From positions 1-64,000 of the forward strand of contig JAFGDW010000157.1 in NCBI GenBank assembly GCA_016931935.1: a DNA stretch of 64,000 bases. Reading direction: 5' to 3'. Position 1 is the first letter of the stretch; each line of letters starts with the position of its first letter. The notes below the pieces were generated by a model. That model saw nothing but the letters and a program-made list of their open reading frames with translations. It made no database searches and was not told the origin of the DNA. This DNA is from Candidatus Zhuqueibacterota bacterium. GTDB lineage: Bacteria; Zhuqueibacterota; Zhuqueibacteria; Thermofontimicrobiales; Thiofontviventaceae. Below, in pieces: positions 6,886 to 61,280 of this stretch. A program made the position numbers and the translations under genes.

Positions 6886-9800
6886 TTATTTCAGCAACAT
6901 CATTTTCTTTGTTTGGACAAACTTGTTATCCACCTGGATACGGTAGAGATACATACCGGTCGATACCCGGCTTCCGCGATCATTCATACCGTCCCAGTTG
7001 ACATGGTAGAATCCGGCGCTTAATTTGTCAGTGATCAGTTCACGAACCTGTTGTCCCATCATGTTGTAGACGATAAGTTTTACTTTACCAGCTTCTGGTA
7101 TGGCAAACTTAATGGTCGTGTTCGGGTTGAACGGATTCGGATAATTCTGACTCAAACTGAATTCAATTGGCGTCGTCGCACTATTATCATCAATACCGAT
7201 GTGTACAACTGGTGCATTTACCTGATGCTCCGAATTAATGAATGTTGCATTTTTAATTCGTGGCTTGCTTGGCACAGACACTTTTGGCTTCAAGGTAAAT
7301 GTAAACAATATTTGTTCCGGCAGCGGTGATACGCCGTAGCCGAGTGTTGCACTTACGAACGAGTACTCAAAACCTTTTTGTTTTGTAAAGAATATATTGT
7401 CTTTACTCAGGAATTTGTTTTCGTATGCAACCATTTCCCACTCATTTTTATTAATGAATACTCGGACATCATAGCACAGCATATTAGCAAAGCTGGTTGA
7501 TTTGGCGCCGTAGACCAGCATATCATCCACCTGATCAACGATGACAAGTTCTAACTGTGAATTTTCATCGGAGACATCAGCATCATCCGCAACCTTATAG
7601 GTAATTCCGTCACCACTGGTGTGACCTGCACTGTAATTTGTTGTTGGCCATTGCAAATCCAGCACGTTAATGACGCTATCCTGGTTAAAATCGCAGTAAG
7701 AATGCCAGCCGGTATCATTGACCGCTTTCCATGTTTTATCCCAATACGTTTCAACCAAATCATAGTCTGCTGAACTTATCTGGTTATCCGGATAGGTACC
7801 GGTTAAGCTGGAACCATCATGCTCATATCCACCACAGTCACCTGCCCACAAACGTTTTTCATAGTAGAAATCAGCAGTTGTAGTAGAATGCGGCTGTACG
7901 GTTTGGTTTTGTAAACGACGGGTTAGCCAACCATCTTTTTCACAGATAATATCGTACTTGCCTTGAGGTATATGTGTCAGCGTATATTGACCGTTTGCAC
8001 CCAGCGTGTATTGAATACCATCGCGGTAATCGGTGTCGTTATTATTTGCCAGGAATATCGAATCGGTAATACAATCGACTCCACCAACACCACAGACATA
8101 AAGATTAACTACCTGCCCGCTATCACCGTCAATTGCCTGTAGATCGACAAATCCGGTAAATTTACCACGCGGCGCCATACTAATTCTTGAGGCATTCTCT
8201 TCACAGTTTTGCCCGAATTCCACAAACGAGGTCGTAACCATATGAGTCATTCGGCTTCCTGTTGTATTGAAGCTTATAATTTGTTCATCGAGGACATCCG
8301 CAGATGCATCGTCACGAGCAATCAATTTCATATAAGCGACGCGTGTACTGCTTAAATCGGCTGAAGATGTACCATTGTCATAATGGGTTTCCCAGTCGCA
8401 CTGATACACGCCATTTGTCAATGTTGCCCGGTTCTTGGTAACAGTTCCATTGAATGTGCCCGTTACTTCAGTGAACGGAGTAATTCCCGGCCAACTGGTG
8501 GTTGTATCGGTATCAACAATTTCGAATGCGCTAGCAGGAACATTCAGATAGAGATACAAAGCCATTGGATTATTCGTGCCGTTATTATCAGTTGCGTATA
8601 CGGATACGGTAATTGTATCACCTTTGGCAATTGTTGCTACAGTTGGGTGTAATCTCCAGTTGAAGTTAGCATTTGTACTGGATTCATCAGAGAAATACAA
8701 TTTACCATCCGCTTGTACCGGAGTTTCCGTTGACCACGTTCCGTCATTTGAGAAGAAATAGTAGACATCGTACGTTCCGGAAGGTGTGTCATTTACAGCT
8801 GCCATATCATTATCAAGATCGGCTACTGAAAGAGATGCACGGCCTGCATTACCGGAACCGAATGTTGTGGATGCAGTCTGGCGTACTTGTACATCCATCT
8901 GGAAACCGTTGGTCGCCGGTAAAATCCAGTAATATCCGGTAACCGAGTTATCCATAAACTGCGTCCAGGTCGTGGAGGTCGAAACTGTCGTTCCGGTTGG
9001 CACCATAAAGGCTGCCACTTCACAATCGGCTGCATTTGCATCCATATCGAACGCATTCCAGCGAAGATCGTACGTATCGCCATTATCCAGCATCACGACT
9101 TCACCTTCTTCAGGTGCTTGCGGGAGCAGGTATTTATAATGACGTGGAGTCAGCGTACGCTGAGTTCCAACAACCATGGTTTCTTCCGAGTTAAGTGTGA
9201 CGATTGCTGCATCACGACCGCCGCTCGGGACCGGACTGGTAATGACTGCATACAGGTAGTATGGTGTTCCATCAACCAGACCAGCATGACGTACATCCCA
9301 CATATAACGATTATTCCGTTTTGTATCTGACGTATCCAGAATCGTTGCAATGTGTATCGTACCATCCGGATCGTTTACAGAATAATCCCACAGCACACTC
9401 GTATCTACCGAAGCCGGAGTAGCACTGGCGCCGGCGCTTCCATAAACCAAATTGCTGGCAAACAGGTTGATTTTCATTGTACCATCAATCTCATTATCAC
9501 CTGTAATTGTCGTACCCCAGTTAATGATAAAATACTCTTCATTATTGGTTTCAAATGTTTTATTCGCCGTATAGTAATCATCAAAAACAAATTTTGGGAA
9601 ATATTTAATGTGCAACTCCATGGCAGTTCCGGCACCATTTGTCATCTGTTTCAAGACCTGCCATTTACCATCATTCGCGACGGCATAGAGATAGAAATCA
9701 CCTGCAGCATCATAATCGGTTGTACTACGCGCTGGTTTGTAGTAGAAGAATTGATTCGTTTCTTCGTCTTCCAGTGGTGTAGTCGTCAATTCGACAGCGC

Positions 9801-11166
9801 CACCCAGGCTATCCACTGTTATAGTCGGTGATGTTCCGGATGTATAAATGCTGTCACTGGTAAGTGTCAACGCTTTTGCTGCTTTAAATATCTGGATAGT
9901 GGCAACATCATCGTAATCAAAAATATTGTAAACAATACCAAGCGAATCCACACTATAACCAGTTGTTCCAATATTTCCATTAAATCCTAATGCCTGACTA
10001 CCGTCCACTGTTATGGCGGACTGATCGTCGTCACCATCCGGTTCCATGACAAAGTCATTATCGTAGTCGATACCAAACGATTCATTTCTTGCATCGCTAT
10101 CATCATCAGTCGATGAAATAAATGTCGGTCTGTGCGTCACTTTAATAGCGCCACTTCGACCGAGTACCCAGTCTGCGGTTAAACTTGATGTTAAATAGAA
10201 ATACCAGGTACCTTCATCATAAATTCTGGTATCGAGCACAACGTTAAATTTATCATTTTCGTGCGCAGTAGTTACATAAGACAACGATCCCCGTGTTAAT
10301 GCATCTACCAGCGTCAGCGATTGAGTAACATCCGCATCTTCACCACGAATCTGGATTAAATTTTTAACTTGTGAACCCCATACATAATATGTCACTTCGT
10401 CTGTGGCATCATCATTATCCAACGTAAAGGATACGGTCTCAAAATCAGTGTCACTACCATCTTTCGTATGACCGCTTGTGCTTGTTTGGTCTGTGACAAA
10501 ATCCGGTAACGCAACCGAAAGCATGGTGGCTTTTACACCATTACTTGGGTAGCTGAAACCTTCGGTATTGGTAGAATCGCCAGCAGTACCATCATAACGT
10601 GTATCCCAGGTAACAAGATCAAGAAAGGATGTATCCTGGCTGGTTGTTTTCCGACTAAATTGTACATATGTAGACGTCGAATAAGCACCCCATCGTGATA
10701 CAGCGAGCGTATATTTCACACTGTCACCGGCGCTTAATGTTGTTGTAATTGGAAATACTAGTGAGTAAGTATCAGCGCCACCACTTATCCTGTCCGTCTT
10801 AAAAACAATGGATGAGGCACTGGCCGAATACACATAGCTTGTAGCAGCAGCTTTCGTTTCAGAAGCCGCACCTACCGAAATGGAAATACCATCTTTATAG
10901 TTGGAGTCTCCATCCGGATCTGCCAAACTAATTCCTGTTGGAATTGTTAAAGTAAATGTCTGACTTCCTGCTGTTCCGGCGCCAGTCATAGTAAATTCCA
11001 GCGCCTGCATGAAATGATGGTCACCATCAATATCATTGACAGTGGCGCCTTTCGGCAAAGAATCGGGGCTTGTAGCTGTAATAGACAACCCATAGCCGAA
11101 AACAAGGCTGCTACTCAGTAACAGTGCGATTACAATGGCAATTTGTAATCTTGCTTGACAATTCAT
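6886..11166 (-). CDS. Giant secreted protein with dockerin-type motifs and type IX sorting domain
   Basis: The 1426-residue product has a signal peptide (about residues 1-25). A very long, Asp/Thr-rich beta-sandwich region follows. A carboxypeptidase-regulatory-like domain (about 1000-1105) contains GQYTLTHIPQGKYDI. Residues about 1120-1186 hold two dockerin-like calcium motifs, YPDNQISSADYDLVETYW and DFNQDSVINVLDL. The next 100 residues again resemble a cohesin sandwich (DVRVFINKNEWEMVAYEN). The C-terminus is a clear type IX sorting domain: QNYPNPFNPNTTIKF, YNMMGQQVRELI, STGMYLYRI. It is likely a surface or extracellular structural protein, possibly docking to the cohesin-like protein encoded next to it. 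The gene is monocistronic, with a strong ribosome site and an intrinsic terminator. Confidence 0.88.
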   Translation of the reverse strand: MNCQARLQIAIVIALLLSSSLVFGYGLSITATSPDSLPKGATVNDIDGDHHFMQALEFTMTGAGTAGSQTFTLTIPTGISLADPDGDSNYKDGISISVGAASETKAAATSYVYSASASSIVFKTDRISGGADTYSLVFPITTTLSAGDSVKYTLAVSRWGAYSTSTYVQFSRKTTSQDTSFLDLVTWDTRYDGTAGDSTNTEGFSYPSNGVKATMLSVALPDFVTDQTSTSGHTKDGSDTDFETVSFTLDNDDATDEVTYYVWGSQVKNLIQIRGEDADVTQSLTLVDALTRGSLSYVTTAHENDKFNVVLDTRIYDEGTWYFYLTSSLTADWVLGRSGAIKVTHRPTFISSTDDDSDARNESFGIDYDNDFVMEPDGDDDQSAITVDGSQALGFNGNIGTTGYSVDSLGIVYNIFDYDDVATIQIFKAAKALTLTSDSIYTSGTSPTITVDSLGGAVELTTTPLEDEETNQFFYYKPARSTTDYDAAGDFYLYAVANDGKWQVLKQMTNGAGTAMELHIKYFPKFVFDDYYTANKTFETNNEEYFIINWGTTITGDNEIDGTMKINLFASNLVYGSAGASATPASVDTSVLWDYSVNDPDGTIHIATILDTSDTKRNNRYMWDVRHAGLVDGTPYYLYAVITSPVPSGGRDAAIVTLNSEETMVVGTQRTLTPRHYKYLLPQAPEEGEVVMLDNGDTYDLRWNAFDMDANAADCEVAAFMVPTGTTVSTSTTWTQFMDNSVTGYYWILPATNGFQMDVQVRQTASTTFGSGNAGRASLSVADLDNDMAAVNDTPSGTYDVYYFFSNDGTWSTETPVQADGKLYFSDESSTNANFNWRLHPTVATIAKGDTITVSVYATDNNGTNNPMALYLYLNVPASAFEIVDTDTTTSWPGITPFTEVTGTFNGTVTKNRATLTNGVYQCDWETHYDNGTSSADLSSTRVAYMKLIARDDASADVLDEQIISFNTTGSRMTHMVTTSFVEFGQNCEENASRISMAPRGKFTGFVDLQAIDGDSGQVVNLYVCGVGGVDCITDSIFLANNNDTDYRDGIQYTLGANGQYTLTHIPQGKYDIICEKDGWLTRRLQNQTVQPHSTTTADFYYEKRLWAGDCGGYEHDGSSLTGTYPDNQISSADYDLVETYWDKTWKAVNDTGWHSYCDFNQDSVINVLDLQWPTTNYSAGHTSGDGITYKVADDADVSDENSQLELVIVDQVDDMLVYGAKSTSFANMLCYDVRVFINKNEWEMVAYENKFLSKDNIFFTKQKGFEYSFVSATLGYGVSPLPEQILFTFTLKPKVSVPSKPRIKNATFINSEHQVNAPVVHIGIDDNSATTPIEFSLSQNYPNPFNPNTTIKFAIPEAGKVKLIVYNMMGQQVRELITDKLSAGFYHVNWDGMNDRGSRVSTGMYLYRIQVDNKFVQTKKMMLLK

Positions 11167-12175: not shown

Positions 12176-12845
12176 AAAGATTTTTAGTATCAGAATTATT
12201 GAGGACAGACTGCCAGAATCCTGTCTTCCATATTAAAAAATAATTTGACAGCGGGAAATAATAAAAGTACACCCCCAAGAAACTCAGGGATCGTATTTCA
12301 TCGTTTAATTTGAAATGATAGCGCTAATATCTAAATGATATACCCTTTCTCCGGACTTCTTGGCGTTCTTTGTAGCTTTGTGGCTCTAAAAAAATATTTT
12401 GCTAATCAGAAAAAACAGAATTAATAATTCATGCTTTATCCCCAAAACGACGTTAAGTATTTTTTCTCCTTTAATCGATCATTTTTCATTCTCCATTCGC
12501 TAATAAAATTTAAAAATCAACCGATATGATTTCTACCACCGCATTATTAGTTTATTTTTTCAACCCAAAATCGGCGTTCATGTAATCATTCCGGTACGTA
12601 TTCGTGACATGAATGTCATAATCATTAAATTGCAGTTTAAATATTAAATTATTGCTGTAATTATTGAACTTTTCATAGCATATGTGTATATTCCGGTCTT
12701 AAAAGCTGACTTCAGAAAAGTTAAAGTTTATGATCGACCTGTACCTTGATATATGATTCGACATGGGTGTTAAAACATGAACGAAGCATCTTTTCAGGGA
12801 ATGGATACGCAATGCTGCTGATTTCGAATTATGTGAGGTTTGTGT

Positions 12846-13796
12846 ATGTACAAGGACAAGTATATCGCAGCTGTTATTCCATGTTATAATGAAGAGAAAC
12901 AGATCGGTAAAGTTATCGCTACCATGCCTGATTTTGTCGATAAGCTTGTCATTATAGATGATCAAAGTACAGATACCACTGTTGCAGTTGTCGAGCACTG
13001 TCGCAAAACGAATGGTAAAATTGTTCTTTTAAAGCATGAAACCAATCAGGGAGTTGGCGGCGCGATTGCCAGTGGGTACAAGTGGTGTCGCGGCAGCAAT
13101 GTCGATGTGGCGGTCGTTATGGCGGGTGACGCACAAATGGATCCGCGTGATCTGCCGGCTATTCTGGATCCGGTGGTTGAAGGAAGCGCCGATTATTCCA
13201 AAGGCAACCGGCTATTCACCGGCGAAGCGTATAAAAAGATACCAAAAGTACGTTTTTATGGAAATGCCATCTTGTCGATGTTGACAAAAATCGCATCAGG
13301 ATACTGGCATGTGGCAGATTCCCAATCGGGTTACACCGCAATCAATAAAAAAGCATTGCAGACGATCAATTGGGATGAAATGTACAAAAATTATGGACAA
13401 CCCAACGATTTGCTTGTCAAGCTGAATGTCTATAACTTCCGGGTTCGTGATGTCGCCATAAATCCAATCTATAATAACGGAGAAAAGTCGAGCCTTAAAA
13501 TTTATAAAGTTGTTTTGTCGCTTTCGTGGTTGTTAGTCAAACTGTTTGTGTACCGTTTAAAAGAAAAATATATTATTCGGAATTTTCATCCGCTGGTCTT
13601 TTTTTACTTTACAGGAGCCATGTCGTTTTTTATCAGTTTTCTGTTATTGTTAAGATTGTTTTACTATTTTTTCTTTCTCAATTTTCGTGTTCCCGATTTC
13701 AACTTTCTGACATGGATGCTGTCACTGCTGATGTCGATTCAGTTTACGCTGTTTGCCATGTGGTTTGATAAGGAAAGTAATAAAGATCTGAGATGA
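12846..13796 (+). CDS. GT2 glycosyltransferase, polyprenyl-phosphate-sugar synthase type
   Basis: The 316-residue product is a GT-A fold transferase of the DPM1-like branch of family 2. It has the N-terminal nucleotide motif IPCYNEEKQIG, then IIDDQSTDTT, and MAGDAQMDP as the metal-binding acidic motif near residue 95. Two membrane segments lie at about 245-300. Such enzymes load a sugar onto undecaprenyl phosphate for use by GT-C enzymes, and two of those are encoded in this locus (40023 and 53527). I chose the ATG at 12846, not the upstream TTG at 12840, because TGAGG lies just before it. This is the first gene of the plus-strand locus and overlaps the next by ATGA. The sugar is not predictable. 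Confidence 0.88.
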   Translation: MYKDKYIAAVIPCYNEEKQIGKVIATMPDFVDKLVIIDDQSTDTTVAVVEHCRKTNGKIVLLKHETNQGVGGAIASGYKWCRGSNVDVAVVMAGDAQMDPRDLPAILDPVVEGSADYSKGNRLFTGEAYKKIPKVRFYGNAILSMLTKIASGYWHVADSQSGYTAINKKALQTINWDEMYKNYGQPNDLLVKLNVYNFRVRDVAINPIYNNGEKSSLKIYKVVLSLSWLLVKLFVYRLKEKYIIRNFHPLVFFYFTGAMSFFISFLLLLRLFYYFFFLNFRVPDFNFLTWMLSLLMSIQFTLFAMWFDKESNKDLR

Positions 13797-14581
13797 CCGA
13801 TTTCACACTGAAAGCCTATCACAAATATTTAGATGCGATTTTATCATCATCGCTTAATGTCATTACTTTGGGGGAATATTTTAAAAACCGGCCAACGGAA
13901 TCCTTTTGTATTATACGTCATGATGTCGATCGAAAACCGATGCATGCGTTGCGAATGGCAGAATTGGAATATAAAATGAATATCCATGCCTCCTATTTTT
14001 TTCGCACACGGAAACATACATTTAAACCGGGCATTATTCGACAGATTTTTGAATGCGGCCACGAAATCGGCTATCATTACGAAAACGTATCTGATACACA
14101 TGGGGATTTGGATAAGGCCCTGTTCGATTTTAAAAACCAGTTGAATAAGCTACGTCATTTCGTTCCAGTCTCAACAATTTGCATGCACGGCCGACCCTTT
14201 TCACCCTACGACAACCGGCGCCTGTGGCAGAATAGCACAAACAAACGTCTGCTCAGTTCAGAACTGGGAATCGCAGGGGATGTTTATCTGGATATTGATT
14301 ATACAACAATTCGCTACATTAGCGATACTGGCAGGAACTGGCACCAATCGCGATCTAACATAAGGGATCGTGTGGTATCTGATTATCAACCTGACTTTTC
14401 AGGATACGATGATCTGGTCAAGTTTTTTAGAACAGCAAAATCGCATCCGATCATCTTTCTGACCCACCCGGAGCGATGGAGCCATAATTGGGGGGATTGG
14501 CTGATCCAATGGTCAAAGGATTATGTGATAAATTTTGCGAAAGCGCTGGTCAATTTGAAATCAAATATTTTATCGAATTAG
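13793..14581 (+). CDS. NodB-like polysaccharide deacetylase family protein
   Basis: The 262-residue protein keeps the NodB motifs in altered form. It has RHDVDRKP with Asp44 and Asp46, GHEIGYHYEN with His90 and His95, and a C-terminal THPERW. This branch is common in glycan clusters and is expected to remove N-acetyl groups or act on a related amide of the glycan. There is no signal peptide, so it probably acts in the cytoplasm on lipid-linked or nucleotide-linked intermediates. It is coupled by ATGA (13793) to the upstream GT2 gene. Substrate is unknown. Confidence 0.8.
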   Translation: MTDFTLKAYHKYLDAILSSSLNVITLGEYFKNRPTESFCIIRHDVDRKPMHALRMAELEYKMNIHASYFFRTRKHTFKPGIIRQIFECGHEIGYHYENVSDTHGDLDKALFDFKNQLNKLRHFVPVSTICMHGRPFSPYDNRRLWQNSTNKRLLSSELGIAGDVYLDIDYTTIRYISDTGRNWHQSRSNIRDRVVSDYQPDFSGYDDLVKFFRTAKSHPIIFLTHPERWSHNWGDWLIQWSKDYVINFAKALVNLKSNILSN

Positions 14582-14685
14582 ACTGGATTAACAAGATCGA
14601 CAGATTTTGATTCGAACATTTTTAACAAATTGAACATGTTTTCAATGTGTCATCGCTGTGAACGACGCTAAATTTGTACAAATAT

Positions 14686-15984
14686 ATGAACAATAAAAAA
14701 CTTTGCATATTTGGTCTTGATTGCGCCACACCCGAATTTGTCTTCGATAAGTTCAAGGCCGAGCTTCCGACATTTAATAGACTAATGCAGCAAGGCAGTT
14801 GGGGACGTTTAGTCAGCACCACACCGCCGATTACGGTTCCTGCCTGGAGCGCGATGACGACGGGCAAAGATCCGGGGGAACTGGGATTGTACGGCTTTCG
14901 CAATCGAATCGGCACCGGTTATGAATTGGCCTCGTCCAACAATTCCGCAGTCAAAACGGAACGTATATGGGATCGTTTGAACCGTCTGCATGGTACACGT
15001 TCAATTATTATTGGCATTCCGCAGACATTTCCGCCGCGCATTGAGAATGGAATCATGATCTCCGGTATCATGACACCATCGAACGAACTCGATTACTCAT
15101 GGCCACACAGCTATAAATCAACGGTGGAACGAATTTCTAACGACTATGTGTTTGATGTTAAAAATTTCCGGAAGCGGGACACCAATGAGTTAAGAACTGA
15201 AATCAATCACATGACCCGAACACGATTCAAACTGATTCGTCACATGCTTGAAACTGAGCAGTGGGATTTCATGATGATGGTGGAAATCGGGCTCGATCGT
15301 ATGCAGCATATTTTTTGGGGAAACGAATCCGTATTGCTCGATTACTACAAATTACTTGATACGGAAATCGCCAAAACAATTGAAATTCTTCCTGATGATA
15401 CACGCATTATGGTCGTTTCGGATCATGGCGCCCAGTCTATGAACGGCGGATTTTGTATTAATGATTGGCTGACCAAGCATGGGTACTTAACGCTAAAAAC
15501 ATCTCCGACATCCGTAACCCCATTTTCCGAATCATTGGTTGATTGGGAGCATACGCAAGCCTGGGGAGCAGGCGGCTATTACGGCAGAATATTTCTGAAC
15601 GTTCAGGGGCGCGAGCCACAAGGTGCGATTTGTGAGAATCAATATCAGTCCATTCGTGATCAGATTCGACAAAAAATACGCGATCAATCTTCCGGTTTGA
15701 AAAACAACGTATTTTATCCGGAACAAATTTATAAGCAGGTGAATGGCACTGCGCCCGATATGCTGGTCTATTTTGATGAATTAAATTTTCGCAGCATCGG
15801 CAGCATCGGACATGATGCCGTTCTTGTCGCCGAAAATGATGATGGCAATGACCTGGCGAATCATTCCCAACACGGTATTTTCATTGATTATAATCCAGCG
15901 TGGCTTAACGATCACAATCAATCGCTTGGGGATGTGCAGATTACCGATATTTTCACGCTCGTTTTAAATGCATTTAGCAATTGA
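14686..15984 (+). CDS. Alkaline-phosphatase-superfamily phosphodiesterase/nucleotide pyrophosphatase
   Basis: The 432-residue product has the type I phosphodiesterase metal and nucleophile motifs. These are FGLDCATPEF (Asp12), TPPITVPAWSAMTTGKDPG with the nucleophilic Thr in the ITVPAWS stretch, SDHGAQSMNGGF (near 245) and NHSQHGIF near the C-terminus. No signal peptide is visible, so a cytoplasmic role is likely, for example hydrolysing a nucleotide-sugar or a phosphodiester on a glycan intermediate. The ATG at 14686 is preferred over the TTG at 14674 because the conserved domain starts right after it. It is encoded in the same run as the amino-acid-type enzymes at 16.0-19.9 kb. The true substrate cannot be read from sequence. 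Confidence 0.85.
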   Translation: MNNKKLCIFGLDCATPEFVFDKFKAELPTFNRLMQQGSWGRLVSTTPPITVPAWSAMTTGKDPGELGLYGFRNRIGTGYELASSNNSAVKTERIWDRLNRLHGTRSIIIGIPQTFPPRIENGIMISGIMTPSNELDYSWPHSYKSTVERISNDYVFDVKNFRKRDTNELRTEINHMTRTRFKLIRHMLETEQWDFMMMVEIGLDRMQHIFWGNESVLLDYYKLLDTEIAKTIEILPDDTRIMVVSDHGAQSMNGGFCINDWLTKHGYLTLKTSPTSVTPFSESLVDWEHTQAWGAGGYYGRIFLNVQGREPQGAICENQYQSIRDQIRQKIRDQSSGLKNNVFYPEQIYKQVNGTAPDMLVYFDELNFRSIGSIGHDAVLVAENDDGNDLANHSQHGIFIDYNPAWLNDHNQSLGDVQITDIFTLVLNAFSN

Positions 15985-16012: not shown

Positions 16013-16402
16013 ATGCAAACAGCCCAACAGACTATCGAAAAAGTTGAAACCCAAATACGACCCGATTCCGATCAGGTATTGATTGAATTTGAAGACCGGG
16101 GAGAATGCTACCGTTTTTCCTATCGCGATTTCAATCAGGTGGAAGCGTATTGTGAAAACGAATGCATGGGAATTCAATTTCTCATCAATGCAAATTTATT
16201 AAGAAAACTGGTTAATTTTTTATTAAAACTTGACGATACTCCCCCCTATTCGTTGGATGATTTGTCTTCAGAAGCTGTAAAAAATATGTTGATTTCATCC
16301 AATGAAATTGAACTAATCGAAAATAATTTCGGGACATCAGATCTCAGAAAAGTTGCTCGGATTGCCGCCAAGCAAACATATAATTTTATCCGAAAGCAGT
16401 AA
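16013..16402 (+). CDS. Small conserved-looking protein of unknown function in the ligase/epimerase run
   Basis: I do not recognise this 129-residue protein. It is acidic and mixed in structure. An N-terminal beta-rich part contains DQVLIEFEDRGECYRFSY, and a helical C-terminal half contains VKNMLISSNEIELIENNF and ends in a basic helix. It has no signal peptide or membrane segment. I chose the ATG at 16013 because AAAGGA lies six bases upstream, whereas an in-frame ATG at 15968 sits inside the preceding phosphodiesterase gene and has no site. It is two bases from the flavodoxin-like gene. A carrier, chaperone or accessory subunit for that enzyme is conceivable but unproven. Confidence 0.75.
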   Translation: MQTAQQTIEKVETQIRPDSDQVLIEFEDRGECYRFSYRDFNQVEAYCENECMGIQFLINANLLRKLVNFLLKLDDTPPYSLDDLSSEAVKNMLISSNEIELIENNFGTSDLRKVARIAAKQTYNFIRKQ

Positions 16403-16404
16403 GA

Positions 16405-17682
16405 ATGGGCCAACGATTATTAATTATGGGTGGCAGTGTGCGTAGTTGTGCGGATGAAGAAACCATTATCCACGCAACCAAACAGATCACTAATGAGCCG
16501 GACTTGTACGAATACATTGAGCATGTCGCCCGATGTCATGCCATCAGCAACTCGGAAGGCAGTGGTATTGCCGTTGCCTATGGCGCGATGAAATATACGA
16601 ATGATATTAAGTATGTACGTCTGAATGAGTACATAAATTCCAAAGGCCAGTTTCATCAACAGCAGGAATTGCTGGATTTGATGATAGATGCGGACGGCTA
16701 TGTATTTCTAACGCCGGTGTATTTTGGTGATCGCTCATCGCTTTTATTTGATTTGTTCACTGCTGTTAAACAGCACGGCCTGGATTTTGATGGAAAAGTA
16801 TCCGCTGTCGCCTCGGTGGGCGCCAAACGCAATGGTGGGCAGGAAACGACCAATATTTACACATTGTACAATCTGATGCAGATGAAAAGTCTGGCGGTAG
16901 GCAACGGTCCACCAACATCGCAATACGGTGGAACGCTTGTCGGTGGCAATAAAGGTACGATGGATAACGACTATTTCGGTATTATGACAGCGATGGGAGT
17001 CGGAACAAAAATTTCCCAAACCATGAATTTGTTGGAAGCAACCGGCAGCTCCAAACCTGTCATCTCGTTCTGGTTCACAGAAGATATGCCGGATCGCCGC
17101 TATTACCGATATTTAAAATCATTACTCCCGAAATTGCCGGCAACTGCCGAATGGCGAATATTGGATTTGCTTAATTTCAATTTCCATCAATGTTTTGCAT
17201 GCAATCGCTGTCCATACGAAATGGGTGAACATTCCTATAAATGCGTCATTCGCGATGACGATATGGCGATCGTTCAGCCATCATTGCTTGAATCGGATGG
17301 ATTTATCGTTTGCGGTCTGAATTATGAAGATGAGGCGCAAAAACAATCGGTTTATCAACGGTTCGTCGAACGAACCCGCTACATCCGTCGCAATGATTTT
17401 ATGCTGACCAATCATCCATTTATGACGCTATCGATGAATGAATTGTTTGCGGATCATTCATATGATTTAAAAGCATTCACAGCATTTTTACGACATAACA
17501 CAATCGCCCATCGCGGACTCCGCGTATTTGAAACAAAACATGGTTTGGAAGAACCGGACATGAATGACTGCCTGCATTCGTTCGTCGACATCACTGCAAA
17601 AAGCAAATCCCAGCGCATGCAAGCACGGGTCATTCAAAAATCGGCCTACGAGGCCATCGGGTATGAGTCAAAATGGCAATAA
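16405..17682 (+). CDS. Tandem flavodoxin-like NAD(P)H-dependent FMN reductase family protein
   Basis: The 425-residue protein appears to be two flavodoxin-like folds in a row. The first (about 1-215) starts LLIMGGSVRS, has the flavin-site stretch LTPVYFGDRSSLLFDLF and continues SVGAKRNGGQETT. The second (about 216-400) has CFACNRCPYEMG followed by CVIRDDDM, the cysteine pattern seen in many iron-sulfur or FMN reductases, then DGFIVCGLNYED. Single-domain homologues transfer electrons from NAD(P)H via FMN. The fused double form and its place beside an enolase-superfamily enzyme and an ATP-grasp ligase suggest reduction of an unusual intermediate. It overlaps the next gene by 10 bases. The reaction is unknown. 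Confidence 0.72.
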   Translation: MGQRLLIMGGSVRSCADEETIIHATKQITNEPDLYEYIEHVARCHAISNSEGSGIAVAYGAMKYTNDIKYVRLNEYINSKGQFHQQQELLDLMIDADGYVFLTPVYFGDRSSLLFDLFTAVKQHGLDFDGKVSAVASVGAKRNGGQETTNIYTLYNLMQMKSLAVGNGPPTSQYGGTLVGGNKGTMDNDYFGIMTAMGVGTKISQTMNLLEATGSSKPVISFWFTEDMPDRRYYRYLKSLLPKLPATAEWRILDLLNFNFHQCFACNRCPYEMGEHSYKCVIRDDDMAIVQPSLLESDGFIVCGLNYEDEAQKQSVYQRFVERTRYIRRNDFMLTNHPFMTLSMNELFADHSYDLKAFTAFLRHNTIAHRGLRVFETKHGLEEPDMNDCLHSFVDITAKSKSQRMQARVIQKSAYEAIGYESKWQ

Positions 17683-18770
17683 CCTATCATTGTAAAAAAA
17701 CTAGCGCTGCGCTTGAGCACCCGTATATGCTTTCATTTGGAACCGTACATACATTCGATTCTGTCATGACCTATCTTCTGGATGATGACAGATTGATCGG
17801 TGTCGGTGAATCAACCGCATTGCCCGGGTACAGTAAAGAAACCCAGGACGATATTTATCAGTGGTCATCCGATTTTCTGGAACTGCATGCTGAAAAATTA
17901 CCGGATCAAATGCATAACATCATCTGCAAGCAATCCACGCCGGGATTCTTGCAGGCATCGCTGTTATCTGCGATTGAATCGGCAATTATGCATAGCGACA
18001 TTTTTGCAATGAATGAAATTGCAGTACCGATTATCGGACTTGTCACGCAGCGTGCTTACAGCATGCTTCAAGCGGAAATTGAATCGCTGGTATCGCGCTA
18101 TAATACGCTAAAAATGAAAATCGGGATGGATGTCTTTTTTGATGCCCAGCGCGTACGCATGGTACAGATGCTTGTGCCGGAACAAACAAAAATCCGGCTG
18201 GATGCCAATCAGGCATTTACTTATAATCAAATTGAAGAATTTCTCTACTGGATCGATCCGGATCAAATTCAATATATTGAGCAGCCGTTGCCGATTGACC
18301 AATGGGACGAAATGGCAAAACTAAATGCTGCATTTCCCCAATTCAATTTTATGCTGGATGAATCTATCAGTTCGATTGATGATATTGATCGCGCTGCGGA
18401 TATGAATTGTTGTCATTATATAAAGCTCAAATTGTTTAAATGCGGCTCTGTCAGCCGTACAATTGATTTAGCCCGGCATGCCCATGAACGTGGGTTAAAA
18501 GTGATTCTGGGAAACGGTGTGCAAAATATAATCGGCGCTTTATACGAGGCATATATTTATCATCAATTACTGAATTTGGGAATTGATGTCACGGCGACAG
18601 AGTCGATCGGCCCATTGAAACTTCGGGTGCAACCGGAGTCATTGTTTCAATTAAATGGTGCGACGTTAGTGTTGAATCCAAAACAGATATTGGTGCATGA
18701 ATATCATCATTCTCAATTGCTACAGCCGGAATTCGCTGGCAGTGATCAACGCGCTCGATTCGTCCTATAA
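17673..18770 (+). CDS. Enolase-superfamily enzyme of the dipeptide epimerase/muconate cycloisomerase subgroup
   Basis: The 365-residue protein keeps every catalytic residue of the subgroup. These are the acid/base motif LKMKIG (Lys147, Lys149), metal ligands Asp177 (LDANQAF), Glu203 (YIEQPLP) and Asp229 (MLDES), and the second base in YIKLKLFKCG (Lys251). The capping-domain phrase GVGESTALPGYSKET matches the Ala-Glu epimerase/OSBS/muconate cycloisomerase branch. In the cytoplasm such enzymes epimerise an alpha carbon of dipeptides or cyclise/dehydrate acids. Menaquinone genes are absent here and an ATP-grasp ligase follows, so epimerisation of an amino-acid-containing intermediate is the more likely role. 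Its end overlaps the next gene by 74 bases, which is unusually long. Confidence 0.82.
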   Translation: MAITYHCKKTSAALEHPYMLSFGTVHTFDSVMTYLLDDDRLIGVGESTALPGYSKETQDDIYQWSSDFLELHAEKLPDQMHNIICKQSTPGFLQASLLSAIESAIMHSDIFAMNEIAVPIIGLVTQRAYSMLQAEIESLVSRYNTLKMKIGMDVFFDAQRVRMVQMLVPEQTKIRLDANQAFTYNQIEEFLYWIDPDQIQYIEQPLPIDQWDEMAKLNAAFPQFNFMLDESISSIDDIDRAADMNCCHYIKLKLFKCGSVSRTIDLARHAHERGLKVILGNGVQNIIGALYEAYIYHQLLNLGIDVTATESIGPLKLRVQPESLFQLNGATLVLNPKQILVHEYHHSQLLQPEFAGSDQRARFVL

Positions 18771-19857
18771 TCTAATCGGGGGAGCAGTCGGAGACACAAC
18801 ACAATCACCGTTTATCGATCGTTGGCTAAAATCAAAACGATTGTCGGAGATTTTCAGGCACACGGCGCCAACGGATGATATCGACACATTTCGCGATGAT
18901 ATTATTCAGGCATGCAAAAACTATCGGGCGGATGCAATTCTGGCATCCGGGACAACAATCACAAATTATTTATCATTCATTAAAAATGATTTTCAAGCTT
19001 CAACAAATTGCACGGTGCTTGTTGAAGATTATATGAAGCTAAAAACCGTGGCGGATAAATGGAACTGTTATGAACTCTGTCAAAAAATCGGAATCCCAAC
19101 GCCACGATCTGTTCTTTTAACATCGGAAAGCGACCTGCAAACAATAGTGAATCACTTTCAATTTCCGGTAATTGCCAAGCCGCGGGATTCGTTTGCATCG
19201 CGGGGGGTACACCTATTTTCATCACAGGATGAATTCAACAAGTATGCATCCACTCAGACTAACGATAAATTTCTAAACAGCACATATCTCGTTCAGGAAA
19301 TTGTCAGTGGTGAGCTGCATGATGTCACTTCCTGTAGCAATAGTGGCCGGGTGATGTCCATGCTTACGCAGCAGCGATTGATGACACTGTACGACTTTGG
19401 CGGCGGCGGCATTATTAATCAAACCACGGATGAGCCGGATTTGCGAACAGATGCTGAAAAGATTATCAAGTATTTGAATTGGAATGGTATACTGGAATTC
19501 GATTTTATCGTCAACGAACGTGGCCATTACCTGCTTGAATGTAATCCCAAAATTTGGGGCACCACGGCGTTGACAGTGGCAGCAGGCTTAAATATGCCGC
19601 AACAATTAATCGATCTGTTTGTATTGAAAAAAAACGTTGAACCGATGGCCAATTATCAGGTGGGATTACAATACAAGTGGCTGTTCCCGGAATGTGTGTA
19701 CCACTGGACGACAAAACCGCGAACAGTTGCAGCCGTCACACGGCGAATAAAAAACACGTTTCACCGTAATGGAGCACACCGGGTAATGCATAATATAGCT
19801 TGGAGCGATACGCTGCATTTAATAGGAATTGTGCTCAATAAGAGCCAGTTTTCTTAA
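18697..19857 (+). CDS. ATP-grasp carboxylate-amine ligase
   Basis: The 386-residue product has the pre-ATP-grasp phrase NIIILNCYSRNSLAVINAL, then the ATP-binding region with IAKPRDSFASRGV (phosphate-binding Lys and Gly-rich loop). The metal-binding end is LEFDFIVNERGHYLLECNPK, which carries the conserved Glu and Asn. This is the CarB-like branch, which activates a carboxylate as acyl phosphate and joins it to an amine. Next to a dipeptide-epimerase-like enzyme it may ligate amino acids to each other or to an amino or uronic sugar. The ATG at 18697 is right because the Rossmann-like strand begins there, despite the 74-base overlap with the upstream gene. It is the last gene before a 369-base gap. 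Confidence 0.85.
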   Translation: MNIIILNCYSRNSLAVINALDSSYNLIGGAVGDTTQSPFIDRWLKSKRLSEIFRHTAPTDDIDTFRDDIIQACKNYRADAILASGTTITNYLSFIKNDFQASTNCTVLVEDYMKLKTVADKWNCYELCQKIGIPTPRSVLLTSESDLQTIVNHFQFPVIAKPRDSFASRGVHLFSSQDEFNKYASTQTNDKFLNSTYLVQEIVSGELHDVTSCSNSGRVMSMLTQQRLMTLYDFGGGGIINQTTDEPDLRTDAEKIIKYLNWNGILEFDFIVNERGHYLLECNPKIWGTTALTVAAGLNMPQQLIDLFVLKKNVEPMANYQVGLQYKWLFPECVYHWTTKPRTVAAVTRRIKNTFHRNGAHRVMHNIAWSDTLHLIGIVLNKSQFS

Positions 19858-20226: not shown

Positions 20227-22254
20227 ATGTGTGGAATTTTTGGTGTTGTCTGTAAATCCGAACAGACGAATAATCTGCCCAAATCGTTACAATTTCTCGC
20301 CCGGCTTTCCGAGTCGCGTGGCAAGGAAGCTGGCGGCTTTATGTTTGCGCTGAATAATTCCATTCATGTATTTAAACGTCCGCAACCAGTGACGGTGTTA
20401 CTAAAAAGCAGTGAGTATCGAACATATTATCAATCGACCATACAGCAAAAAATCTTAGCAAGTAATACACCGGTTGTAGCCATTGGCCATTCGCGTTTGG
20501 TTACAAACGGAGCCCAAACAGTGCATGCCAATAATCAGCCGGTCGCAACCGAAGGCGTGGTTGGCGTGCATAACGGCATCATTGTGAACGACCAGAAGCT
20601 CTGGAAACAATTTGGCTGGCAGCATCCGGATAATGCATTGGATTCGGAGATCATTTTTCGCTTGAGCCGGTACTTCCTGACTAAATCAGGTTCATTGCCT
20701 GATGCTATTGCGTGTACGTTCCAAACCATCAAAGGCTCGGCTTCAATTGCCATGTTAATAGATGATCAGAATTATCTGACACTGGCAACTAATAACGGCT
20801 CCGTTTACACGTGTCGGAACGATGCGCATAATTTCCTGGCATTTGCGTCGGAACGCTATATTGTGGATAAATTGATTGAGCAACCGTTTCTCAATGGTCA
20901 TTCCCCTGGATGTATCATTTCTCAGCTAGTTCCGGGAACTGCATGCCTCGTCAATTTAATGGATTTGACTGAGCAACACTTTTTTTTGAATGACAGTCAT
21001 TCGCTGGATTCAACCCGGTTCATACCGACAGCGAAACGGACACTGGTGGATGTACAGCCAGCACAGTCGGACTCGGCGAGATATAAGGGAATTACAATTC
21101 ATCCAAATGGACCGGTTCCGAAAAATTTTATCACGCATGCGGACAAGGTTGAACGCGCCGTAAATACCTTGCAGCGCTGTACACGCTGTTTGTTGCCATC
21201 CACCATGCCATTTGTTGATTTTGATAAAGACGGTGTGTGCCGGTACTGCCGAACCTATCAATCGGTTCCGGTAAAAGGTCATGCGGCGTTTGAGGCGCTG
21301 GTCGCGCCATATCGGAAAACACGCCACCAACAGGATGTGATTATCGGCTATAGCGGCGGCCGTGACAGCAGCTACGCGTTGCATTACTTTAAAAAAGTGT
21401 TAGGCATGCAACCCATTACCTACACGTATGACTGGGGAATGGTCACCGATCTGGCGCGGCGAAATATTTCCCGTATGTGCGCCAAACTGGGAGTGGAAAA
21501 TATTCTCATTTCCGCAGACATTCAGCGGAAACGGACATTCATTCGGCAAAATATTGAAGCCTGGCTAAAGCGACCACATCTCGGTATGGTGCCGTTGTTT
21601 ATGGCCGGCGACAAGCAGTTCTTTCATTATGCAAAAGTGCTGAGCAAGCGTACCGGCATCGATCTGGTGTTTTATGCGCGCAATGTGTATGAGAAAACCA
21701 ATTTCAAAACCGGATTCTGCGGGATTCATGAAAATCAGGATTTAAACAAACGGGTGTATGAACTTTCCCTGGCGGGAAAAATGAAATTGACATATTTCTA
21801 TGCCAGACAATTGCTAACAAATCCGGCATATTTAAACAGTTCACTGATTGATACCGGCTGGTCATTCTTCCTTTCCTTTTTCACGAAACATCTGCATCGC
21901 CAGATTTTTCAGTACATTCCCTGGAATGAACACGAAATAATGACCACTTTGCGGAACGAATACGACTGGGAAACTGCCGGCGACACATCCGCCACATGGA
22001 GAATCGGCGATGGGACGGCTGCATTCTACAATTATATATATTATGTTGTTGCCGGTTTTACAGAAACCGACACATTTTTAAGCAACCTGATCCGCGCAGG
22101 ATTAATAACACGCGCTGCTGCACTCAAACGTGCGCAGCAGGAAAACAGACCACGATTCGAGTCCATCAGGTGGTACTGTCAAATTATCGGACTCGATTTT
22201 GAAAATACACTGCGAGCAATTCAGCAGATACCAATCATGTATCAAATGGGGTGA
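20227..22254 (+). CDS. Fusion: class II glutamine amidotransferase + WbpG/PseA-type N-acetyl sugar amidotransferase
   Basis: Residues about 1-270 are an Ntn-type glutaminase: Cys2 in MCGIFGVV as nucleophile, GHSRLVTNGAQ, then VVGVHNGIIVND, the pattern of PurF/GlmS. Residues about 310-600 are a WbpG/PseA-type synthetase with a zinc knuckle (Cys317, Cys320 in RCTRCLLPS and the CRYC pair near 340), the PP-loop GYSGGRDSSYALHYF near 373, and TYDWGMVTDLARRNI. WbpG-type enzymes make acetamidino sugars by attacking an adenylated N-acetyl group, and in Pseudomonas they take ammonia from a separate HisH-like class I subunit. Here a class II glutaminase seems built in. It overlaps the next gene by ATGA. 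The product is predicted to be an amidino or amide-bearing sugar. Confidence 0.87.
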   Translation: MCGIFGVVCKSEQTNNLPKSLQFLARLSESRGKEAGGFMFALNNSIHVFKRPQPVTVLLKSSEYRTYYQSTIQQKILASNTPVVAIGHSRLVTNGAQTVHANNQPVATEGVVGVHNGIIVNDQKLWKQFGWQHPDNALDSEIIFRLSRYFLTKSGSLPDAIACTFQTIKGSASIAMLIDDQNYLTLATNNGSVYTCRNDAHNFLAFASERYIVDKLIEQPFLNGHSPGCIISQLVPGTACLVNLMDLTEQHFFLNDSHSLDSTRFIPTAKRTLVDVQPAQSDSARYKGITIHPNGPVPKNFITHADKVERAVNTLQRCTRCLLPSTMPFVDFDKDGVCRYCRTYQSVPVKGHAAFEALVAPYRKTRHQQDVIIGYSGGRDSSYALHYFKKVLGMQPITYTYDWGMVTDLARRNISRMCAKLGVENILISADIQRKRTFIRQNIEAWLKRPHLGMVPLFMAGDKQFFHYAKVLSKRTGIDLVFYARNVYEKTNFKTGFCGIHENQDLNKRVYELSLAGKMKLTYFYARQLLTNPAYLNSSLIDTGWSFFLSFFTKHLHRQIFQYIPWNEHEIMTTLRNEYDWETAGDTSATWRIGDGTAAFYNYIYYVVAGFTETDTFLSNLIRAGLITRAAALKRAQQENRPRFESIRWYCQIIGLDFENTLRAIQQIPIMYQMG

Positions 22255-23476: not shown

Positions 23477-24583
23477 ATGAGTATTTTATTCTTTTTTGTG
23501 CATCCATCAAAATTTCATTTGTTTAAACATACAATCCGCCATTTGAAGTCAAAAGGATATGATGTTGATATTGCGATTGTTTCCAAGGATGTGCTGGAAC
23601 AGCTTGTTAAAACCGAAGGCTGGCATTACACCAACATTGCCCCAAACGGCCGTCGATCCAAACGTCTGAAGGGGTGGGCAGCAACGATATATCATGCCTG
23701 GCGCACGATTCGGGCGTTGCAACGTCTGACTCGCTCCAAAAAGTACAATCTGTTCGTAACAGATGACTTGCTAAGTGTAATCGGCTGGATGCGCAAAGTG
23801 ACAACCCTGCATTTTCAGGATAGTGATTTGCATGTAGTACCTGAAAGCGCTGCGCTATTGGAATTAGCCACTTATGTGGTGGCGCCGTCCTATACAATTC
23901 TCGGCCGCTATAGTGTCAAAAAGTTACCATACAATGGCTACCACGAACTGGCGTACCTGCATCCGAATTATTTTGAACCGGATGAATCGATTGTGTCGTC
24001 AATTCGAAAACCGGGTGTCCCCTATTTCATCATTCGATTGGTATCGTTAACCGCGACCCACGATCAGCACAAACGGGGATTGAATGACGAGCAGGTGCAT
24101 CGTCTTATTAGTTTACTAAGTCAGGCCGGGGATGTATATATCTCAGCCGAACGGCAGTTGCCGGATGATCTTGAACCGTACCGGCTGCCAACACCGCCGG
24201 AAGCCATCCTGCACGTACTGGCGTTCGCCGATATGTTGATAAGCGACAGCCAGACCATGACCACCGAAGCCGCGTTGCTGGGAACACCGGCAATTCGCTG
24301 CAATGACTTTGTTGGCCGCATCAGCTCGATGGAACGGCTGGAGCACGAATACGGATTGACATTCGGATTTTTACCAGATAAATTTGATGATATGATGGCA
24401 TTTATCCATCAACTACTCGACATGCCCAATCGGAAAACAGTCTGGCAAAAACGCCGAAAACGCATGTTGATAGATACAATCGATGTCACGGAATTCATTA
24501 TAGAGACCATTAAAGAATACAGCAGGAAAAGTGATGTGCGGTATCGCGCTGTGCTACAGTCCAGTACGTGTCGGGCAGAATGA
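23477..24583 (+). CDS. DUF354-type glycosyltransferase-like protein (GT-B fold)
   Basis: The 368-residue protein resembles the DUF354 family, a GT-B fold group related to UDP-GlcNAc 2-epimerase and MurG. N-terminal ILFFFVHPSKFHLFK precedes a Rossmann domain, and the C-terminal donor half has FADMLISDSQTMTTEAALLG and TPAIRCNDFVGRIS. These proteins occur in archaeal and bacterial surface-glycan loci and probably transfer or modify a nucleotide sugar in the cytoplasm. The last 17 codons extend into the next gene, a 50-base overlap, so the extreme C-terminus (after about residue 350) is likely not part of the fold. It stands at the head of a coupled run with AsnB and a GT4 enzyme. Confidence 0.8.
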   Translation: MSILFFFVHPSKFHLFKHTIRHLKSKGYDVDIAIVSKDVLEQLVKTEGWHYTNIAPNGRRSKRLKGWAATIYHAWRTIRALQRLTRSKKYNLFVTDDLLSVIGWMRKVTTLHFQDSDLHVVPESAALLELATYVVAPSYTILGRYSVKKLPYNGYHELAYLHPNYFEPDESIVSSIRKPGVPYFIIRLVSLTATHDQHKRGLNDEQVHRLISLLSQAGDVYISAERQLPDDLEPYRLPTPPEAILHVLAFADMLISDSQTMTTEAALLGTPAIRCNDFVGRISSMERLEHEYGLTFGFLPDKFDDMMAFIHQLLDMPNRKTVWQKRRKRMLIDTIDVTEFIIETIKEYSRKSDVRYRAVLQSSTCRAE

Positions 24584-26429
24584 AACGGAAACGATCCGGC
24601 GGATGAACGCGTTGCAACGCCATCGCGGTCCTGATGATGAGGGTATCTCCGTTCACGCTCATTGCATTCTTGGACACGTGCGGTTAGCAATTATCGATTT
24701 GACGGATGCCGGACACCAACCGTTTGTATCGACTGATGGCCGTTTTGAACTGGTGTACAACGGAGAGATATATAATTACATCGAATTACGTTACGAATTG
24801 ACAGCACTGGGCTGGCAGTTTCATACACAGACAGATACTGAAGTGTTATTAACAGCCTGGCAGCAATTTGGGCCATCCTGTTTGGATAAGTTAAATGGCA
24901 TGTTTGCCTTTGCCGTTTATGATACAATTGAAAATATGTTGTTCTTTGCCAGAGACCGGTTTGGAATCAAACCGCTGTATTACACACACATGGGGCATCA
25001 CTGGTATTTTGCTTCGGAAATTAAAACATTTTTGGCAATACCCGATTTCCAGCGAACATTGAACTATCAGGCATTGTTTGAATTCCTGGTTTTTAATCGG
25101 ACAGATATAGGTGAATCAACCTTTCTTGAGGAAATCAATCGGCTGCCCAAAGGGCATTACGCATTGTTAAACAATGAAGAATTGACTCTCCGGCAATGGT
25201 GGAAACCGAGTTCACAGAATACAGAATTTCAACCGCTGCAATCGCTTTATGAATCGATTGACGAGACAATGACGTCATCAGTTGCGCTCCGCCTGCGCAG
25301 TGATGTACCGATGGGCACCTGTTTAAGCGGCGGCCTGGATTCATCGATCATTACCGGGATTGTTCATGAGCATCATGCTGTGGAGACCGATTTTGCAACA
25401 TTCACCGCTGCGTTTCCGGGCTATCCGTTCGACGAAACAAACTATATTGATGCGCTGAACAGAAAGTATCATTTCAGGAACATACGAACGATGCCGTTGG
25501 CAGAAAAATGTCTGGATAATTTTGCGGCATTTGTTCGTTGCCAGGATGAACCAACACCAAGTCCGTCATACTTTGCTCAATATGAAGTTATGCGGCTGGC
25601 ACGGGAGCACGGCATCACCGTAATGCTTGATGGCCAGGGCGGCGATGAAAATTTTGCTGGGCATCAATATATGCACGCATACCATCTGCTTGGCTTGCTG
25701 TATGCCAGGCGTTGGGACAAGGCATTTCATGAAGGTTGGAACATACTTCGGCGCAAGCAGGAATGGCTGACGTGGCAAACATTTCTATATGGATTATTAC
25801 CAAATTCGCTCAAAAAGCAATCAATTCGAGCGACGCGTCCGTTTATCAGTGCGGATTTTTTCCAGCATCACATTGGATTAAGCCCGGTATACAACCAATT
25901 TCTGAATGCGCGTTCGCTGAACGATTCGATTGTCCAGCATTTCAAACATAAACTGGAACACTTGCTCCGCGCTGAAGATCGTAACTCGATGGCATTCTCA
26001 ATTGAAGCACGGGTTCCGTATCTCGACTACCGGCTTGTGGAATTGCTATTGAATATCCCGGAGTCGCTAAAAATTCATGCCGGTGAAACAAAGCGGTTAC
26101 AAAAGCAAGCATTGGGAAAATACACGGTGCCGGAGATTCTCAACCGTACGGATAAAGTCGGATTTGCAACTCCGGTACGGGAGTGGATGCAAACACCCAT
26201 ATGGCAAGCACATACGCAGCGCAGCGCAGATTTTCTTCACAATCGGCTGCCGGACGTATTCCCGACCATTCGATTGGCAACACTGAATCCGATCGATTGC
26301 TGGAAACTAAATCAAGTCGCTGAATGGATTACTATTTTTATCGATGAGAAAAAAACTGACAATTCTAATCTTCGCCCGGTTGTCCGATCAGAAGCTGAAG
26401 TCAAAATTGGCGCCAATCGCCCGGCTTAA
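24534..26429 (+). CDS. AsnB-type class II amidotransferase (copy A)
   Basis: The 631-residue enzyme has the glutaminase nucleophile Cys2 (MCGIALCYS), HRGPDDEG, NGEIYNY and ARDRFGIKPLYY, then the synthetase PP-loop LSGGLDSS near 265 and EARVPYLDYRLVE. It should hydrolyse glutamine and pass ammonia to an adenylated carboxylate. In glycan loci such homologues often amidate uronic acids rather than aspartate. The start must be ATG 24534 so that Cys becomes residue 1 after Met removal; GTG 24531 would block this. Its second ATP-side motif reads LDGQGGDENFAG, unlike the S-G-x-G-x-D-E of the other copies in the locus. It overlaps the following gene by 86 bases. Confidence 0.9.
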   Translation: MCGIALCYSPVRVGQNETETIRRMNALQRHRGPDDEGISVHAHCILGHVRLAIIDLTDAGHQPFVSTDGRFELVYNGEIYNYIELRYELTALGWQFHTQTDTEVLLTAWQQFGPSCLDKLNGMFAFAVYDTIENMLFFARDRFGIKPLYYTHMGHHWYFASEIKTFLAIPDFQRTLNYQALFEFLVFNRTDIGESTFLEEINRLPKGHYALLNNEELTLRQWWKPSSQNTEFQPLQSLYESIDETMTSSVALRLRSDVPMGTCLSGGLDSSIITGIVHEHHAVETDFATFTAAFPGYPFDETNYIDALNRKYHFRNIRTMPLAEKCLDNFAAFVRCQDEPTPSPSYFAQYEVMRLAREHGITVMLDGQGGDENFAGHQYMHAYHLLGLLYARRWDKAFHEGWNILRRKQEWLTWQTFLYGLLPNSLKKQSIRATRPFISADFFQHHIGLSPVYNQFLNARSLNDSIVQHFKHKLEHLLRAEDRNSMAFSIEARVPYLDYRLVELLLNIPESLKIHAGETKRLQKQALGKYTVPEILNRTDKVGFATPVREWMQTPIWQAHTQRSADFLHNRLPDVFPTIRLATLNPIDCWKLNQVAEWITIFIDEKKTDNSNLRPVVRSEAEVKIGANRPA

Positions 26430-61279: not shown

Positions 61280-61280
61280 T

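Follow-up and report, generated by a model that had tools for sequence, protein, structure and literature searches.

A flavodoxin–enolase–ATP-grasp gene cassette proposed to acylate amino sugars of bacterial surface glycans

The described systems that lie closest to the locus reported here are the PseB–PseC–PseH–PseG–PseI–PseF pathway of pseudaminic acid, in which PseH is the N-acetyltransferase, the Dlt system, composed of an AMP-ligase (DltA), an MBOAT protein (DltB), a carrier (DltC) and DltD, and the sfmABCDE flagellin-modification operon of Shewanella oneidensis. In this operon the ATP-grasp protein SfmE (ATP-grasp_4 domain) is encoded beside a PseI-like protein, there is no clear PseH orthologue, and a mono-acetylated nonulosonate receives a large group of 236–264 Da; the paper left the 236 Da group unsolved and mentions no enolase-superfamily or flavodoxin partner (PMC3765264). 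The present locus lies on the forward strand of a window of 64,000 nucleotides, the first 64 kb of a 120-kb contig (JAFGDW010000157.1) from the 7.9-Mb genome of a Candidatus Zhuqueibacterota bacterium, and contains neighbouring genes for a tandem flavodoxin-fold protein, an enolase-superfamily enzyme and an ATP-grasp ligase. On balance, this trio (16405–19857) is probably a biosynthetic cassette whose products synthesize an unusual carboxylic acid and join it by an amide link to a surface-glycan amino sugar. Many unusual N-acyl groups on bacterial surface glycans are of unknown biosynthesis, and the trio would be the signature of one such pathway. No paper on the combination was found in the open-licence literature, which agrees with a first-pass annotation of the window that had regarded the arrangement as undescribed.

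Conserved association and two gene contexts

As a conserved unit, the genes for the flavodoxin, the enolase and the ATP-grasp recur across at least ten phyla of bacteria and are also present on some contigs of viruses. Genes were called and clustered in 81 flavodoxin loci, of which 75 provided usable anchors, the flavodoxin having been missed by open reading frame calling in the other six (L055, L062, L067, L069, L071 and L082). The enolase gene lies within four genes of the flavodoxin in 33 of the 75 loci and directly beside it in 30, where it is upstream in 16 and downstream in 14, showing that the adjacency outlives rearrangement. Gaps within the adjacent pairs range from −71 to 93 bp; half of the pairs overlap, eight of them by exactly 4 bp. 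A validated ATP-grasp gene is found within four genes in 30 of the 33 enolase loci as against 5 of the 42 others (Fisher p = 3e-12, ignoring relatedness), in counts that leave out clusters c20 and c40. The five loci with an ATP-grasp and no enolase are four viral contigs and L021, which ends at a contig edge. Cassette ATP-grasps belong to several subfamilies, those of the compared loci being 16–22% identical to the window’s protein and clustering apart from it, which suggests that the partner was swapped while its function was kept. Flavodoxin and enolase distances are correlated over 25 loci (Mantel r 0.47, with none of 5,000 permutations as high). The first-pass annotation had proposed looking for its four-gene order in other genomes; the flavodoxin–enolase–ATP-grasp unit does recur in glycan loci, whereas the small protein that precedes it in the window seldom joins.

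Cluster c40 was rejected as an ATP-grasp, being PseG-like. Cluster c20 (L020, L074, L076 and L079; for example, L074:7912–8754) is a family of 280-residue proteins for which neither Pfam nor the PDB offers a relative; it is always near the c16 ATP-grasp where a c16 gene was called, beside the enolase–flavodoxin pair.

The second context of the flavodoxin consists of an AMP-ligase (c3), a carrier protein (c11, c35 or c42) and an MBOAT protein (c7, and c29, which is alike by eye), together with a DltD/SGNH-like protein (c22 and c44) that was recognized by eye alone and has no Pfam match. At least one of the AMP-ligase, carrier and MBOAT genes is present in 26 loci that lack the enolase, and the two contexts are nearly exclusive of each other, their labels requiring three changes on the flavodoxin tree. 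The set resembles the Dlt system in its AMP-ligase, phosphopantetheine carrier, MBOAT and SGNH-like-looking family and differs from it in the added flavodoxin; it has neither enolase nor ATP-grasp, and the window belongs to the other context. As another acyl-activation and transfer set, it counts in favour of an acylating role. Separately, L057, L062 and L081 combine the enolase/ATP-grasp cassette with an AMP-ligase, a carrier protein or an AAC(3)-like set, an arrangement that would suit a sugar bearing two different acyl groups.

The flavodoxin family is rare yet widely scattered. A single-sequence scan of viral contigs and of plasmid and phage records gave no match; the viral search succeeded only once two distant single-domain proteins had been brought into a small alignment, which revealed the conserved RNGGQE and PVYFG motifs, and it then yielded seven loci on IMG/VR viral contigs. 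An alignment of the viral-locus proteins then retrieved 73 loci among 84,980 species genomes. These span more than ten phyla, with hosts in Elusimicrobia, Desulfobacterota, Nitrospirota, Bdellovibrionota, Alpha-, Beta- and Gammaproteobacteria, Myxococcota, Planctomycetota, Verrucomicrobiota, Bacteroidota, Spirochaetota, Nitrospinota, Acidobacteria and Parcubacteria. Among 82 genomes of the host phylum the flavodoxin was found only in the window genome, so it appears to have been acquired horizontally. In the viral contig L015 (523–8828) terminase and portal genes lie a few kilobases upstream of the flavodoxin, which indicates that phages carry parts of the cassette; L012, L014 and L017, like L015, encode a flavodoxin, in most cases accompanied by ATP-grasp and PIG-L genes.

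Two loci are closest to the window in layout. The Elusimicrobium locus L018 has the same order of phosphodiesterase, small protein, flavodoxin (44% identical to the window’s) and enolase (31%), with its ATP-grasp ahead of them. L037 shares the ATP-grasp (50%), flavodoxin (35%), enolase (31%) and a glutaminase–WbuX fusion (43%). The window locus thus merges two partly overlapping gene sets, of which only the L018-type set includes the small protein.

The cassette enzymes and the small protein

The enolase-superfamily enzyme has the features of the MLE subgroup, namely the lysine of a KxK motif on strand 2, a lysine on strand 6 and three acidic metal ligands. Lys149, Lys251, Asp177, Glu203 and Asp229, listed as retained in the first-pass annotation, are all present, and Lys147/149, Asp177, Glu203, Asp229 and Lys251/253 are invariant in an alignment of 34 sequences; with these residues intact, the enzyme is predicted to be catalytically competent, as had been supposed. 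All 34 relatives carry GNGV in strand 7 and Glu310-x-x-Gly313 in strand 8; the latter stretch reads TESIG in the window protein and mostly E-x-N-G in the relatives. The window enzyme falls under every NCBIfam equivalog cut-off: its top scores are to o-succinylbenzoate synthase (OSBS) models (87 bits, cut-off 259), and models of L-Ala-D/L-Glu epimerases give 36–44 bits (cut-offs 343–500). Its best PDB match, 2p88/2p8b (7e-18 with the single sequence, 7e-47 with a profile), is presumably the N-succinyl-Arg/Lys racemase of Bacillus cereus. This is the closest solved relative, and the alignment spans the E-x-x-G-x-LK end; it is distant, however, and lacks GNGV at the seventh strand.

In dipeptide epimerases, an Asp-x-Asp preceding a Gly at the last strand binds the α-ammonium group. 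The host genome also encodes a dipeptide-epimerase-like protein, L100, which has GCMIES and DLDG motifs, reaches 155 bits against the epimerase model of E. coli type and adjoins an NlpC/P60-like (cell-wall peptidase-like) protein assigned by eye. Unlike L100, the window enzyme has no Asp-x-Asp, and GNGV … E-x-x-G replaces the GCMIES … DLDG of the host’s true epimerase. The earlier label ‘dipeptide-epimerase-like’ therefore stands at the level of the superfamily and fails on the epimerase signature and model scores, and the dipeptide or Ala-Glu specificity drawn from it is not supported.

The ATP-grasp protein has the fold, ATP-binding lysine and Glu/Asn metal ligands of a carboxylate–amine ligase. 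Lys121, Lys161, Glu281 and Asn283 are invariant, so that the phosphate-binding lysine and the Glu/Asn end are intact, as had been noted before. Its gene shares a 74-nt overlap with the enolase gene, and its start is backed by alignment of MNIIILNCYSRNSLA with ..RLLVLNCYSRNSLA of L037.

The tandem flavodoxin (AlphaFold pLDDT 93) is made up of a WrbA-like domain 1 (about residues 1–213), which superimposes on WrbA with a Z score of 20.6 and a root-mean-square deviation of 2.1 Å over 165 residues, and a domain 2 (about residues 214–425) that holds four cysteines arranged as C-x2-C-x2-CP with a longer gap before the fourth. It has the fold and GGQET loop of flavodoxins of the WrbA or flavone reductase (FLR) type, and the invariant GAKRNGGQET stretch and the four cysteines together define the strict tandem family (75 of 75 for both). 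The profiles of both domains match one single-domain relative in L007, whose motifs are divided between them: PVYFG and RNGGQET are in domain 1, and the cysteine cluster and an ERTRxxRR stretch are in domain 2. This division indicates that the tandem protein is a fused pseudo-dimer, each half retaining different motifs, and a single composite flavin mononucleotide (FMN) site would be formed. We know of no FLR/WrbA-type protein that is paired with an enolase. FLR (7d38) was retrieved as a relative both by sequence and by fold, and its cysteine motif resembles that of domain 2, whereas the window protein fuses two domains, neither of which has the full set of motifs. Because FLR is an ene-reductase (PMC7862272), a redox step at a C=C bond, or a related one, is proposed. 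Iron–sulfur flavoproteins hold a [4Fe-4S] cluster on a compact cysteine motif; the four invariant cysteines of the tandem family have the longer final gap described above, and the FLR paper mentions no iron.

The small protein has a single homologue, of 113 residues and 41–42% identity, at the same position in L018; no others were found beyond it, and none in viral contigs. This positional homologue shows that the gene is real. An in-frame ATG at 15968 would add 15 residues. The AlphaFold model (pLDDT 63) gave no usable fold match, and the protein does not generally belong to the cassette.

The proposed pathway and its alternatives

Eight loci (L019, L021, L026, L031, L047, L057, L075 and L083) contain pseudaminic-type nonulosonate genes, and in these the cassette, or the flavodoxin with the ATP-grasp, is found among genes for NeuB/PseI-like proteins, SpsF-type cytidylyltransferases, PseC-like DegT proteins or PseG-like proteins. 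PseB and PseC of L019 exceed curated cut-offs; in the examples tested, the NeuB/PseI and PseG matches are strong yet under theirs. The ATP-grasp of L083 carries a fused domain of cytidylyltransferase type. Compared with the pseudaminic acid pathway, which these genes resemble, the cassette loci lack PseH and have the flavodoxin, enolase and ATP-grasp instead: a search with one GNAT model found no PseH above cut-off in the draft genomes of the eight loci, and none of the weak PseH matches with a fetched locus lies within a cassette locus. Several cassettes are flanked by PIG-L deacetylases, whose activity would expose an amine.

These nonulosonate loci without PseH, taken with the S. oneidensis precedent, suggest that the ATP-grasp joins an acid to a sugar amine, and carboxylate–amine ligation on a glycan would be its most economical role. 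In the pathway that we infer, the tandem flavodoxin, as an FMN enzyme and asymmetric fused pseudo-dimer, would act on a small carboxylic acid in a redox step, which may be an ene reduction like that of FLR. The Lys149/Lys251 pair of the enolase would remove the proton α to the carboxylate, with a metal held by Asp177, Glu203 and Asp229, and the acid would be racemized, epimerized or dehydrated as a result. The ATP-grasp would then convert the acid to an acyl phosphate and link it as an amide to the amino group of a sugar precursor, standing in for PseH in pseudaminic-type clusters, and the neighbouring WbuX-like amidotransferase may modify the product later. The order of these reactions, their substrates and the amide link are all put forward on the strength of gene content, catalytic residues, the conserved association and the two alternative activation contexts.

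Several observations weigh against this scheme. The flavodoxin might act on the sugar rather than on the acid; some phage loci have the flavodoxin and ATP-grasp with no enolase; most flavodoxin loci come from metagenome-assembled genomes; and the absence of PseH, as judged with one GNAT model on drafts, is suggestive. No NeuB/PseI synthase was found on the contig of the window, the NeuB-family genes of the host being on other contigs, so the acceptor there is probably another sugar, and only acylation of an amino sugar is claimed. A sugar-acting flavodoxin would form the substrate for acylation, with the enolase and ATP-grasp in one context and the AMP-ligase and carrier in the other as interchangeable systems for acyl delivery. 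The flavodoxin is indeed the sole constant of both contexts, and genes for DegT aminotransferases, NeuB and PseG surround loci of either type. We nevertheless consider this unlikely: the flavodoxins of each context form mostly distinct clades, and flavodoxin and enolase co-vary, which fits an enzyme that recognizes the acid, and relatives of the flavodoxin reduce small planar molecules.

Other accounts have less to recommend them. Dipeptide epimerases rank high among the PDB relatives of the enolase, and amino acids are joined by ATP-grasps such as those of the PylC and D-Ala-D-Ala ligase types, so that an Ala-Glu type epimerase and a ligase could together place a peptide substituent on the glycan; this is improbable given the missing GCMIES … DLDG motifs, the GNGV and Glu310-x-x-Gly313 of all 34 relatives, the low epimerase scores and the racemase as best structural match, and a dipeptide epimerase role was rejected on cut-offs, motifs and context. 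It is equally hard to credit that the cassette makes a free small metabolite (a peptide-like natural product or a cofactor) and reached glycan loci by the chance of horizontal transfer. Its patchy occurrence, viral contigs included, would suit such a product, and tandem flavodoxins are not known as glycan enzymes, but glycan genes flank many loci across phyla, in L083 one polypeptide combines the ATP-grasp with a sugar cytidylyltransferase-type domain, and a sugar amidotransferase-like gene adjoins the cassette in the window, L036 and L037. Least probable by far is a locally recruited OSBS or muconate cycloisomerase unrelated to its neighbours, which was set aside on cut-offs, motifs and glycan context. 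OSBS models do give the best NCBIfam scores, which fall far short of the cut-off, and the enolase keeps its adjacency to the flavodoxin in both placements with correlated distances; no muconate or menaquinone genes were seen in the neighbourhoods inspected, a clustering that the first-pass annotation had named as telling against its own proposal.

Amide-linking of an unusual acid to an amino sugar being the preferred reading, a broader version of it is tentatively offered, and we regard it as possible rather than probable: an unrecognized, horizontally spread and partly phage-borne pathway, in which a fused flavodoxin and a new enolase activity produce a new chiral acid and the ATP-grasp replaces PseH in making N-acyl nonulosonic acids and other amino sugars. 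The gene signature also occurs in cultured isolates, among them the environmental isolate Roseivirga sp. E12 (L074), which makes the acid, the ligase reaction and the possible replacement of PseH directly testable. The cassette further points to an uncharacterized subfamily of enolases in a defined genomic setting, and to the carriage of glycan-modifying enzymes by phages.

The glycan locus of the window

All four open reading frames described in the first-pass annotation (small protein, flavodoxin, enolase and ATP-grasp) were found adjacent on the + strand, where they are genes 4–7 of a run that begins at 12840 and extends through the glycan locus (Table 1). They are near the head of that locus rather than at it, where the first-pass annotation had placed them, since genes for a GT2 glycosyltransferase, a deacetylase-like protein and a phosphodiesterase precede them on the same strand.

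Table 1. Genes of the cassette and its immediate neighbours in the window.
Product	Coordinates	Strand	Basis
GT2 glycosyltransferase, similar to polyprenyl-phosphate sugar synthases; opens the run	12840..13796	+	Pfam Glycos_transf_2 3.8e-22; AglJ/PpgS-like, under cut-offs
Polysaccharide-deacetylase-like protein	13793..14581	+	Weak PdaB match; no Pfam match
Type I phosphodiesterase/nucleotide pyrophosphatase-family protein	14674..15984	+	Pfam Phosphodiest 2.6e-43
Small protein, 129 residues, conserved YCENECMG	16013..16402	+	One homologue, in L018
Tandem flavodoxin-fold protein	16405..17682	+	Pfam FMN_red
Enolase-superfamily enzyme, MLE subgroup, own subfamily (GNGV ... E-x-x-G)	17673..18770	+	Pfam MR_MLE_C
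ATP-grasp carboxylate–amine ligase, PRK12767/PylC-like	18697..19857	+	Pfam ATP-grasp_3 8.8e-15
Glutaminase (GATase_6) fused to WbuX-like N-acetyl sugar amidotransferase	20227..22254	+	GATase_6 1.6e-10; WbuX 133 bits, cut-off 203

The neighbours have counterparts in the two related loci. The GT2 protein is 61% identical to that of L037, which is encoded two genes ahead of the L037 ATP-grasp, and the deacetylase-like protein is 36% identical to the product of a gene at the equivalent place in L037; the phosphodiesterase is 41% identical to that encoded immediately 5′ of the L018 small protein. The fusion gene, a recurrent neighbour, starts 369 bp downstream of the cassette and combines a glutaminase and a WbuX/PseA-like amidotransferase in one polypeptide; the same fusion, 43–44% identical, adjoins the cassettes of L036 and L037.

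Further along, the glycan locus encodes asparagine synthases, methyltransferases, a flippase-like protein, an exosortase-type deacetylase (DUF3473) and a carbamoyltransferase. The asparagine-synthase-type proteins number four (24531–26429, 29894–31840, 33964–35868 and 61260–63188), and there are also two B12-binding radical SAM proteins (38572–40023 and 50254–51789) and an FrhB/FdhB-family protein of the coenzyme F420 hydrogenase β-subunit type (57651–58988). A type IX secretion (T9SS) C-terminal sorting domain, in keeping with a bacterium of the FCB group, is present in a 1,426-residue protein whose gene flanks the locus on the − strand (6886–11166).

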